Notes under the pieces: model-generated
Seen by the model: the letters and a program-made list of their open reading frames with translations, nothing else
The model's database searches: none
What the model was told of the DNA's origin: nothing
Made by a program: the position numbers and the translations under genes
NCBI RefSeq assembly: GCF_032854445.1
Contig: NC_088307.1
Coordinates: 23,511,953-23,575,952 of the forward strand
From: Liolophura sinensis
Taxonomy: Eukaryota > Mollusca > Polyplacophora > Chitonida > Chitonidae
DNA: 64,000 bases
Direction: 5' to 3'
Part shown: positions 15,301 to 21,300 of the stretch, in pieces
Position numbering within the stretch: position 1 is the first letter of the stretch
How the letters are laid out: each line of letters starts with the position of its first letter

Positions 15301-18300
15301 TAGTACTATAGTGACTATGTGACTAGTACTATAGTGACTATGTGACTAGTACTATAGTGACTATGTGACTAGTACTATAGTGACTATTTGACTAGTACTA
15401 TGTGACTAGTACTATGTGACTATGTGACTAGTACTATGTGACTATGTGAGTAGTACTATAGTGACTATGTGACTAGTACTATAGTGACTGTGACTAGTAC
15501 TTTAGTGACTATGTGACTAGTACTATGTGACTATGTGAGTAGTACTATAGTGACTATGTGACTAGTACAATAGTGACTATGTGACTAGTACTATGTGACT
15601 AGTACTATAGTGACTATGTGACGGTCAATAGGTCAAATCAGACTTCGTTTTGAACTGCTTTTGTTGATTGAAATGTTTGTTTATTTTGACAAGTGAGGAT
15701 AATTTTTCAAAACAGTTTAGATAATGCAAAGAAGTTTCATCAGGATTCACTATTCAAATTAGTTTCGAGTACACATGAACGGGGTTGCATAATTTTTCAT
15801 TTTCTCAAATGTTTTTTTTTTTCTTAATTTTCTTAATGTTAAAAAAATTACAGACTGAGAGTGACAACCACATATGCCATAAGCCATTAATGCATGACCA
15901 TTCTCTCTTGAATCATGACTATTGAATATTTTTTAAAAGTGATGTCAAGACCAATTGCTCATGTTATGAGTTTCAGTCAGTCTAGACTGATACTCTAGGT
16001 TGTAAGCTTTATGAGCAGGTCTTCACAGTTGACTGGATTGGTGTCCTGAAATACATTTAACAATAAATAACTGCAATTTGCACCGATTATCAGTTTGTAG
16101 TATCAACTAGGAGGCCAGCTTGAGTTCATATATAGGCAGTGATAGTTACTTTAAAATAAATGGATAGTAAAGTAAAATACAGAAATGTTCAATTTTAGTA
16201 TCTTAAACAGTAGGTCAAAATAAAACAAATCTGAATATCACGCAGGAAGTGGTGGTAGGTACGTGGGAAAATAACTTCTATCTGTGGTTTGTGTCAGAGT
16301 CTGTCTCACTGTGTTGACCCTGGTTTTTGTATGTTGTGTAGGGTATGAAGTTGATACTGGAGAGCCCTGAAGAAGGCCCAGACATGGAGCTCATGGCTTT
16401 GTTCATCAACCTGGCAGCCAACAAGCGAACTGCCCAGATCATTTGCGAGAAAAATGGACTCAAAATGCTGATGAAGAGAGCATTCAAGTTCAGGGATCCA
16501 CTTATGATGAAGATGATTCGTAACATATCCCAGCATGATGGACCCACAAAAAACCTCTTTATAGTAAGTCAATACCCTCTGTATTATCATAGTTAATAAA
16601 TTTGACTTTCCTCATATAAAGTGACGTGTTCTTGGCTACATATTTCAACCTACCAAATCTACAAATCATTTGCAAAGGGTATTCACAAGTGGAGTGAGAG
16701 ATCATGTAAGTACTTTAGGCCCTAACTCAGTGATAATGATAATAAATAGACAAATATAAGCAAAAACAAAGATGTACATTAGTCCGGTTCAGTTGCGGAG
16801 GAAAATAAATCAGCAGTTTTTTTCTTCTTAGACATTTTATTACTTTAATTTTAATGAAAAGCAAGGTTGTTTCCAGTTGTAAGGATTATCCAAGTTTTAG
16901 AGATTCATTCAAGTAAGTATTTAAACAATACACAGGCACTGGAAAATTTATTATGAAAAAAATGATAAAATTATGAGAATTACATTACACTGTATTACCA
17001 CAAACTATTTTCCTGTGTACATATGAAAAGAACATTTGGGAATAATACATGGTCATGACATAAATTTTGTGATGTGTCTTGTTTTCTGACAGGACTATAT
17101 CAGCAATCTCTGCACGACTGTGTTGGAGAATGACGACGAGGACTTTGCCCTGGAGTGCCTGGGGATTCTGGGTAATCTAACCATCCCTGACCTGGATTTC
17201 GAGCTCATCCTGAAGGAGTATAACCTGGTGCCCTGGATCAAAAATAGACTACAGCCAGGTATGAGAGTTGCTTCCCCTGGATTGTACATGATTACCTAGT
17301 TTTGCATTGGGTGGACACGCATAGCGATGAAGAACCCTACAGTGGATATTCATTTGAAGCTAGTGTTAATTTGTTAGCAAGTTAGGGTGACTGAAGTTTT
17401 AGTTGACTTCCTCTCCGGTCTTACATGGGAAGGTCTGCCAGTAATTGGAAGGTGGTTCTGAGTTCCTTCCAGGCAGAACATCATATTGCTAGCCACCATT
17501 GTATAAGCAAAATGTTCTTGAATATGGCGTAAAAAATGAATCAAATAAATAAAAAAAAATAAATTTATTATTATTTTGTTCATGTCGTGTTTTCAAAGCA
17601 TCATTTTTTTTAACAAAAACGAAGAACAGGGCTGCCAAACCTAGTCCTGAAGAAACCTGAAAATACCCAATCATGAATTGTCATGAAACAGATATCAATT
17701 TTTGTTTAAAAATACAATCTGTTGCAAAAAAAAAATGTACCAGAGCAACATTGATTCTACTGTAAACATAGAAAGCAGCAAACAGTTGCCATATATTCAT
17801 GTCAAATGAGTTCTGGTTGTTGTGTGGAATGATGATTTTGATGAGGGTTTATTCAAATGTGATTCCAGCAAATAAGACAGAAGAAGATGTTGTTCTCGAG
17901 ATAATAATCTTGGTGGGGACAGTTTGCTGTGACGATGCCTGTGCCAGTATGCTCGCCCAGTATGGGATTATCCAGTGTCTCATAGAGCTGCTCAATGGTG
18001 AGTCACGTGTATAGAGGGTTAGAGACAGGGACATGTACCACATGACCCATGACCAATGTGCTGGCCCAGTAGGGGATTATCCAGTGTCTCATAGAGCTGC
18101 TCAATGGTGAGTCACATGTATAGAGGGTTAGAAACAGGGACATGTACCACATGATCCATGACCAATGTGCTGGCCCAGTACGGGATTATCCAGTGTGTCA
18201 TAGAGCTGCTCAATGGTGAGTCACATGTATAGAGGGTTAGAGACAGGGACATGTACCACATGATCCATGACCATTATGCTGGCCCAGTACGGGATTATCC

Positions 18301-21300
18301 AGTGTCTCATAGAACTGCTCAATGGTGAGTCACATGTATAGAGTGTTAGAAACAGGGACATGTACCACATGATCCATGACCAATGTGCTGGCCCAGTACG
18401 GGATTATCCAGTGTCTCATAGAGCTGCTCAATGGTGAGTCACATGTATAGAGGGTTAGAGACAGGGAAATGTACCACATGATCCATGACCATTATGCTGG
18501 CCCAGTACGGGATTATCCAGTGTCTCATAGAACTGCTCAATGGTGAGTCACATGTATAGAGGGTTAGAGACAGGGAAATGTGCCACATGATCCATAACCA
18601 ATATGCTGGCCCAGTACGGGATTATCCAGTGTCTCATAGAGCTGCTCAATGGTGAGTCACATGTATAGAGGGTTAGAGACAGGGACATGTACCACATGAT
18701 CCATGACCATTATGCTGGCCCAGTACGGGATTATCCAGTGTCTCATAGAACTGCTCAATGGTGAGTCACAGGTATAGAGTGTTAGAGACAGGGAAATGTA
18801 CCACATGATCCATGACCAATGTGCTGGCCCAGTACAGGATTATCCAGTGTGTCATAGAGCTGCTCAATGGTGAGTCACATGTATAGAGGGTTAGAGACAG
18901 GGAAATGTACCACATGATCCATGACCATTATGCTGGCCCAGTACGGGATTATCCAGTGTCTCATAGAACTGCTCAATGGTGAGTCACATGTATAGAGGGT
19001 TAGAGACAGGGAAATGTGCCACATGATCCATAACCAATATGCTGGCCCAGAACGGGATTATCCAGTGTCTCATAGAGCTGCTCAATGGTGAGACACATAC
19101 ATAGAGGGTTAGAGACAGGGAAATGTACCACAAGCGTTATACTCAACAATGTATTGCTGTTTCTGTATACTTGTTCACGTATCAAAGGATACTGACAGTT
19201 TACAAGCGCTGTAGTGTAACAGCTAGGAATCAGATTGTTTAGGGAGAAAATACTGATTTATAACACCCATTGAAAAATTAGAAACGTGAAATATAACAAT
19301 ACGTAATATGATATCTCTGTAAATCTTGTCTATCAGTTATCTTGCTTTGTGTTGCAGCTAAGCAGGAGGACGATGAGATGGTGTGTCAGATTGTCTATGT
19401 CTTCTATCAGATGATCTTCCACGAATCCACCAGAGAAGTTATCATCAAAGACTCTCGTATCCTTTTTGTCTGAGCTTCCAGTTAAATACTTCTGGTAGTT
19501 GTGACAGGCAGCTTTTGTGAGGATGGAAGGATGGCATTGTTGTTGTTGCAGGAGGGGTTCTCCTTGCTTTTGACTGGGGGATGGATGTTGAAATGCGAAA
19601 ACATTGCAGCTTGTCACCTATTGACTGAAAGCAAATATTTAAGCTATGTTTTTAAAGGGTGTTAAAAAGTGTTTATTGAAACATCGAAATCGGCTTTAAA
19701 ATACAAGTAATACATCATTAATGCAGGGCACAGTTTCAAGATGTGATATAGGTGTGATAATCACACATATAGGATAATGGCATGGTAATAGTAACGTACA
19801 AAATATCGTACGACAAATGTACGATAAAAAAATGTTGAACGCCGCTTTGTAAAACCGGGCCCTTGGGATTTTGATTGTTGTCTTTCCTATGACAAAAAAG
19901 AAAAAAAAACGGGTTACATTTTTCCCAGGTATACTTGGTGTATTCTTGCAAAGAAAGTGGCATATGTAAGTGTTAAAGTTACTCTTTCATGGTATGTGTC
20001 ACATTTTAAGTTGGTCATCTGATTGTCTCCACTATAAAGTAATTACTGAAGAACCTTTAGTGAGGCAAATGAATGAATGAATGAATGATGATGATTTCTC
20101 AACACCATTAGTGAGGAAAACAAATCAGTGTGTTCAAAATGTAGATAAAGTTACGTTGTAAAGTCTATGAGGCTTGGTGAAAAAAAGGCACCAGGCCTAG
20201 CCCATAAAAAGCTTTATTGAACAATATTTAATCCAGGTGGAAATTATATCCTTTAAAATAGTCCCTTACAGCAGCTATTTACCATTGCCAAGTCTTCATA
20301 ACTTTCGAAAGCACACCTTGAAGTCCTTTTTTAAAAATCACACATCATCATTTGCTCTTCAACCCTGATTCTGTGGGCCTGTATGATTTGATGGTAAGGG
20401 TAGAACTGCATTTCTACAGGAAATCATGTGCTCTTGGACCCTGATTCTGTGGGCCTGTATGATTTGATGGTAAGGGTAGAACTACATTTCTACAGGAAAT
20501 CATGTGCTCTTGGACCCTGATTCTGTGGGCCTGTATGATTTGATGGTAAGGGTAGAACTGCATTTCTACAGGAAATCATGTGCTCTTGGACCCTGATCCT
20601 GTGGGCCTGTATGATTTGATGGTAAGGGTAGAACTACATTTCTACAGGAAATCATGTGCTCTTGGACCCTGATTCTGTGGGCCTGTATGATTTGATGGTA
20701 AGGGTAGAACTACATTTCTACAGGAAATCATGTGCTCTTGGACCCTGATTCTGTGGGCCTGTATGATTTGATGGTAAGGGTAGAACTACATTTCTACAGG
20801 AAATCATGTGCTCTTGGACCCTGATTCTGTGGGCCTGTATGATTTGATGGTAAGGGTAGAACTACATTTCTACAGGAAATCATGTGCTCTTGGACCCTGA
20901 TTCTGTGGGCCTGTATGATTTGATGGTAAGGGTAGAACTACATTTCTACAGGAAATCATGTGCTCTTGGACCCTGATCCTGTGGGCCTGTATGATTTGAT
21001 GGTAAGGGTAGAACTACATTTCTACAGGAAATTATGTGCTCTTCGATCCTGATTCTGTGGGCCTGTATGATTTGATGGTAAGGGTAGAACTGCATTTCTA
21101 CAGGAAATCATGTGCTCTTGGACCCTGATTCTGTGGGCCTGTATGATTTGATGGTAAGGGTAGAACTACATTTCTACAGGAAATCATGTGCTCTTGGACC
21201 CTGATCCTGTGGGCCTGTATGATTTGATGGTAAGGGTAGAACTACATTTCTACAGGAAATCATGTGCTCTTCTATCCTGATCCTGTGGGCCTGTATGATT

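Follow-up and report, generated by a model that had tools for sequence, protein, structure and literature searches.

An array across an exon end and its 5' splice site in chiton KIFAP3, with similar arrays in kinesin and myosin genes of the same genome

In a 64,000-nucleotide stretch of the genome of the chiton Liolophura sinensis (contig NC_088307.1, positions 23,511,953 to 23,575,952; hereafter the window), the end of a short exon of the KIFAP3 gene and its 5' splice site (donor) are tandemly repeated, so that the true donor is followed by ten copies of itself in the adjoining intron. The array is a mirage minisatellite, a class described in amphioxus, rather than a new kind of thing, and it displays the features of that class that can be tested. 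It is very probably the product of ordinary minisatellite growth across the exon end, close to selectively neutral and tolerated as exon definition takes the outermost, exon-minimal site. Arrays of like architecture were also identified at donor and acceptor (3' splice site) boundaries of kinesin and myosin genes elsewhere in the genome.

The KIFAP3 array and its copied donors

All 13 of the 13 above-cut-off matches of the PF05804 (KAP) profile in the genome fall within the window (5368-23213, plus strand), which identifies the host gene as KIFAP3 and agrees with an earlier reading of this stretch made from the sequence only (the sequence-only reading). Analysis of the array with Tandem Repeats Finder (TRF) revealed a period of 109 bp, 10.9 copies, 94% matches, 0% indels and a score of 2105. 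When the copies were aligned in register, 11 lay head to tail at an exact 109-bp step, with donor GT dinucleotides at 17998, 18107 and onwards to 19088; the ten further copies claimed by the sequence-only reading were thus recovered by both approaches. Its estimate of about 50 bp of exon and 60 bp of intron per unit was right as an approximate size, the exact figures being 54 bp of exon end and 55 bp of intron, and the last copy ceases to match at 19133. GT is present in 11 of the 11 copies, and both GTGAGT and ATG/GTGAGT (the slash marks the cut) in 10 of 11, which bears out the claim that every copy but the last, which reads GTGAGA, retains GGTGAGT. Around the cut, copies 1-9 match the true site exactly over 10 to 34 nt on the upstream side and over 9 nt on the downstream side, so the donor 9-mer alone cannot distinguish the true site from those copies.

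The coding consequences of donor choice were examined by a frame test. Joining position 17997 to 19358 left the frame open with no stop, whereas each of the ten inner donors gave one common truncation, ending in ELLNGESRV followed by a stop, in line with the claim that any later donor brings in an in-frame TAG. The authentic boundary is intact: the frame is open from donor 0 alone, and copies 1-10 lie 3' of it. Since all inner donors yield an early stop, the first donor must be mainly used if protein is made; judged from the reading frame, it would be the donor chosen in KIFAP3, and the earlier claim to that effect is supported for the main donor. All nine donor columns are constant across copies 0-9, in which 15 of the 109 columns are variable; within this single-species array, the chance of such constancy is 0.249.

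The copies also record how the array grew. A chance origin of the 11-copy array is out of the question. Two unit types are present, copies 3, 5, 7 and 9 having two diagnostic changes in common, and copies 5 and 9 are identical; 54 of the 55 copy pairs differ. Copies separated by even lags are closer than those separated by odd lags by 1.57 differences, a value as extreme in 678 of 20,000 shuffles. Thus, of the earlier claim that alternating unit types show expansion in 218-bp blocks, the two types were confirmed and growth in 218-bp (perhaps 436-bp) blocks received modest support. Within the first 99 columns, private changes are concentrated in the edge copies (four in copy 0, four in copy 10, and none or one in each of copies 1-9, all small numbers), a distribution that, with the lag pattern, is consistent with block expansion that bypassed the edges. 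The larger full-length distances of copy 10 partly reflect its tail past the array end. A genome search with two units returned this array alone (five rows, one candidate); very common words were skipped in that search, so absence elsewhere is not proven. A dispersed repeat or transposon as the origin of the 109-bp unit was rejected, as in that search the unit matched this locus only.

Table 1. Features of the KIFAP3 locus (positions in the window) and boundary-spanning arrays in sampled kinesin and myosin regions (positions in each region)
Feature	Position	Strand	Details	Basis
KIFAP3 exon (numbered 12 in the sequence-only reading)	17869..17997	+	129 nt	PF05804 match 17871-18002, sequence, frame test
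Exon-side part of repeated unit	17944-17997	+	final 54 nt of the 129-nt exon	
Host intron	17998..19357	+	GTGAGT...TTGCAG, 1,360 nt	sequence, frame test
109-bp array	17944..19132	+	11 copies, of which copy 0 holds the genuine exon end with its donor and the ten others lie in the intron; final copy truncated	TRF, alignment in register
True 5' splice site	17995..18003	+	ATG/GTGAGT	
Nine copied donors	18104..18984	+	identical 9-mer; GT 18107 to 18979, step 109	
Tenth copied donor	19085..19093	+	ATG/GTGAGA	
In-frame TAG	18012..18014	+	first encountered if true donor skipped	
Following KIFAP3 exon (13 in the sequence-only reading)	19358..19456	+		PF05804 match 19315-19455, sequence
L015 donor array	6788-8805		kinesin; 27 copies, 24 with GT	
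L022 donor array			29 copies, 24 with GT	
L026 donor array	2570-5834		kinesin; 46 copies, 40 with GT; largest donor case	
L031 donor array			6 copies, 6 with GT	
L003 donor array	7798-8291 (gene orientation)		kinesin; 125-bp units; 4 copies, GT in true one only	
L006 acceptor array			42 copies, 30 with AG	
L007 acceptor array			12 copies, 9 with AG	
L028 acceptor array			8 copies, 7 with AG	
L033 acceptor array	2146-3506		myosin; 43 copies, 41 with AG; largest acceptor case	

Boundary-spanning arrays in other genes of the genome

The genome (609,464,459 bases in 632 contigs) was searched for the kinesin and myosin motor families, for which 132 and 81 hits were listed. The sample comprised 32 regions with at least two motor hits within about 10 kb, amounting to 257,012 bp and 127 of the 213 hits, 105 of them kinesin. 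It covers two gene families, and the choice of regions with closely spaced exon hits disfavours long arrays between exons. The hidden Markov model (HMM) hits understate exon length and are not exactly exons: one pair overlaps, the hit at L015:8409-8531 is itself an array copy, and region L033 includes 200 N. With arrays defined by a TRF score of at least 80 and a period of at least 10, the sample contained 71, which covered 42,435 bp and were present in 23 of the 32 regions.

Arrays that span an exon boundary were identified in nine of the 32 regions, on the donor side in L003, L015, L022, L026 and L031 and on the acceptor side in L006, L007, L028 and L033 (Table 1). The singularity that the sequence-only reading implied for the KIFAP3 array is therefore not borne out, given like architecture in these regions and the published amphioxus mirages. 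Exon ends were assigned by visual inspection, guided by the HMM hit, the reading frame and splice consensus; the copy counts include the true site and allow mismatches of up to one-third, except in L003, which was read directly. Examination of 16 exon-array pairs led to the acceptance of eight distinct arrays, L015 accounting for two pairs, and L003 was added separately, its exon extending past the HMM hit. The pairs not counted were three in L004, the one in L020, two of the three in L026 and one of the two in L028. Region L020 was rejected as a 5' mirage: its position is suggestive, but the exon hit crosses a stop and the array is intronic. The L004 array (2181-3423) was left undecided, and an array in L029 close to the start of an exon (12-bp unit, 3.2 copies) was likewise not counted.

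Frame tests on five donor arrays identified an in-frame stop before the first copied donor in four (L015, L022, L026 and KIFAP3); in the fifth, L031, use of the first copied donor would lengthen the exon by 31 nt and throw it out of frame. A frameshift would also follow from use of the nearest upstream acceptor copy in L007, L028 and L033. The L015 array additionally holds a longer exon copy (8409-8531), which may represent the beginning of a new exon.

The placement of arrays was compared with a circular-shift null built from 2,000 rotations of the arrays inside each region. Eight arrays crossed one exon boundary compared with 8.77 expected (L003 excluded, its HMM hit falling short of the exon end). 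One array, that with the L015 copy, contained a whole exon hit compared with 12.45 expected, and none of the 2,000 shifts gave a number as low. When ten arrays were pooled (the nine and KIFAP3), mismatch at the splice dinucleotides was 1.104 compared with 1.146 from adjacent column pairs (P = 0.50). The copied splice sites look neither protected nor, L003 apart, purged, and selection that keeps or purges copied donors was not seen overall, either in KIFAP3 (P = 0.249) or in the pooled arrays.

Other features in and around the window

The next KIFAP3 intron contains a second array (20347-21414), with 14 copies of a 76-bp unit that was matched only there; donor-like GATG/GTAAGG occurs in 14 and acceptor-like CTACAG/GAA in 13, framing 50 nt. 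It was rejected as a second KIFAP3 mirage, there being no match to the next exon beyond that of shuffles when the array tail was excluded (94 of 1,000 as good). Comparison of the exon at 12243-12404 with the 76-bp array gave a score of 22, with 8 of 200 shuffles as good. A T-rich array of 17/34-bp units (10803-10904) directly precedes the acceptor of a different KIFAP3 exon without reaching it. More large minisatellites were identified in the window at 47923-50730 (33-bp unit, about 86 copies), 53703-54230 (31/62 bp) and 58803-60719 (67/334 bp). On the minus strand, positions 38333-39031 hold an open frame of 232 amino acids with C2H2 zinc-finger-like repeats, which may resemble a GFI-type factor. 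On one contig of 108,685 bases, COX1 occurs seven times at steps of about 15.5 kb; these are mitochondrial genomes head to tail, probably an assembly effect.

Origin of the array, its relatives and its meaning

The array would have originated by tandem duplication of a 109-bp segment spanning the 3' end of the exon and its 5' splice site, with later growth presumably by slippage or unequal exchange. A duplication that spans the boundary keeps the exon-attached copy intact and leaves the others intronic, so the protein would be unharmed if the first donor is taken. The exon is short and its flanking introns are long (about 610 nt upstream and 1,360 nt downstream), so exon definition would pair the upstream acceptor with the nearest, true donor. 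Any leakage to copies 1-10 would yield transcripts with a premature stop codon that are probable targets of nonsense-mediated decay (NMD). The array would be selectively near neutral, and the same process may have built the donor- and acceptor-end mirages in the other genes. Long flanking introns favour whichever sites lie nearest to each other across the exon, and in exon-definition minigenes with two identical 5' splice sites the upstream one is chosen exclusively (Carranza et al. 2022, PMC9225289). That exon-centric proximity rule resembles the KIFAP3 case in its identical competing donors, long flanking introns and favour for the nearest site across the exon; it differs in that it concerns minigenes with two sites, or alternative pairs in humans, whereas KIFAP3 has 11 natural sites and an outcome predicted from the frame.

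Several observations weigh against this account. Among human 5' pairs overall, the downstream site is preferred in about 60%, and with equal strengths the upstream site is preferred in only 60%; at 3' splice sites, long introns do no more than lessen the preference for the upstream site (PMC9225289), so the rule has exceptions, and acceptor mirages are not fully explained and form the harder test. Use of the nearest copied acceptor in L006 would insert 27 nt, keeping the frame and bringing in no stop, and thus the outermost site is not demanded by every mirage. In L003, three of three inner copies read GG instead of the donor GT, which could be purging or possibly one change spread by homogenisation, and this array alone supplies 0.5, almost half, of the pooled mismatch sum of 1.104. 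RNA structure that hides the copied donors was rejected as an explanation of donor choice, as the true donor has no consistent accessibility advantage: its local 9-mer accessibility was top in the shortest setting (70/50) only, one of three, and lowest of all in the longest folding setting. In the human ABCA7 variable number tandem repeat (VNTR), one unit is retained at a rate of about 2%, and skipping of the following exon is correlated with the length of the array (PMC5954066), so such arrays need not be neutral.

The ABCA7 correlation, which involves skipping of exon 19 (PMC5954066), also lends some weight to a mildly harmful, drifting array, in which copied donors would lower correct KIFAP3 splicing with copy number, and the loss of donor GT from all L003 inner copies could be read in the same way. 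We consider this unlikely, since boundary-spanning arrays are not depleted and their dinucleotides are not purged overall, although small effects would escape both tests. The sequence-only reading had suggested regulated truncated transcripts. A poison-exon-like switch of this kind, in which inner donors, used under some conditions, adjust the level of KIFAP3 by way of truncated mRNA prone to NMD, would account for the one premature stop common to all ten inner donors and for the exact donor 9-mer common to nine. It is nevertheless highly improbable: donor-column conservation within the array is not beyond chance, the pooled copied splice dinucleotides behave like other columns, and similar arrays are present in other genes. 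These results give no pointer to a maintained regulatory role, and the suggestion is unsupported. The same lack of constraint, the existence of acceptor arrays of like kind and an intron of just 1.36 kb make it hardly credible that the donor row (ten copied donors in 1.1 kb, nine of them GTGAGT) is a platform that recruits U1 small nuclear ribonucleoprotein against premature polyadenylation (telescripting) or aids elongation. Tandem arrays are error-prone in assemblies in general, but an artefact has next to no probability here, since nearly all copy pairs differ and HiFi reads, with a mean of 8,347 bp at 14x, would span the 1.2-kb array; they are those of the published assembly of the chiton Liolophura japonica (609.5 Mb, 632 scaffolds; PMC11068029), with which five public transcriptome samples are also listed.

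The array has close counterparts among known systems. The name mirage was given to tandem repeats that straddle exon-intron boundaries in amphioxus Adh; globin genes of amphioxus have them too, at donor as well as acceptor boundaries, and splicing is reported to be normal and array length unstable (PMC3087553); others are in PGBD5 and troponin C (PMC3902484). The Adh, globin and troponin C mirages are said to leave normal splicing undisturbed (PMC3087553, PMC3902484). The amphioxus cases (Adh3, BflGb6, BflGb9, PGBD5 and troponin C) and ours are alike in having minisatellite-like copies over a donor or acceptor boundary, with many units keeping the splice signal, and in edge units that are more diverged, as in the KIFAP3 array (PMC3087553). 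The chiton mirages differ in that they belong to a mollusc, have units 27-125 bp long in as many as 46 copies and number several within one small set of genes; they are known here from the genome sequence of one haplotype. The ABCA7 intron-18 VNTR is similar in that the array starts at an exon donor, the first two bases of its 25-bp unit being the splice donor, and the donor one unit further in is used at a low level with a frameshift (PMC5954066). As described, it begins at the GT with the exon sequence unrepeated, and its length is known to range over about 12 to 427 units (PMC5954066); in contrast, the KIFAP3 array, which abuts the exon and has a donor in every unit, has exon sequence in its repeat as well. 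In intron gain by tandem duplication (PMC4974935; model in PMC3087553), the duplication likewise carries splice signals, but KIFAP3 has no evident new exon or intron and all ten inner donors lead to a stop. No report of mollusc mirages was recognised in the open-licence literature, judged by titles and abstract openings and with subscription papers uncovered; as far as could be seen, Mollusca is a new phylum for the class.

The value that the sequence-only reading saw in the locus as a natural test of 5' splice-site choice and exon definition is upheld. One intron presents ten identical donors and an eleventh that is near-identical, whereas published tests use two identical sites in minigenes (PMC9225289). 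Donors and acceptors are likewise arrayed by the tens in other conserved genes of this genome. If only the outermost site is used, exon-centric choice would be far stronger than the pairwise data show; if inner sites are used, the leak rate per copy would be directly measurable. More broadly, there is about an even chance that mirages are pervasive and nearly neutral in the chiton genome, with boundaries crossed as freely as chance allows and the spliceosome almost always taking the exon-minimal pair, even against some 40 near-identical rivals. If so, the genome would offer a large natural library of graded splice-site competition at both exon ends, which could decide how exon definition chooses among identical sites in vivo; it would also be a continuing source from which new introns and exons arise. 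The literature consulted describes mirages from cephalochordates only, apart from a kindred case in humans. They may be common wherever genomes are rich in minisatellites, and there they could confuse gene annotation and give rise to new introns. The chiton genome seems to hold many such natural experiments.

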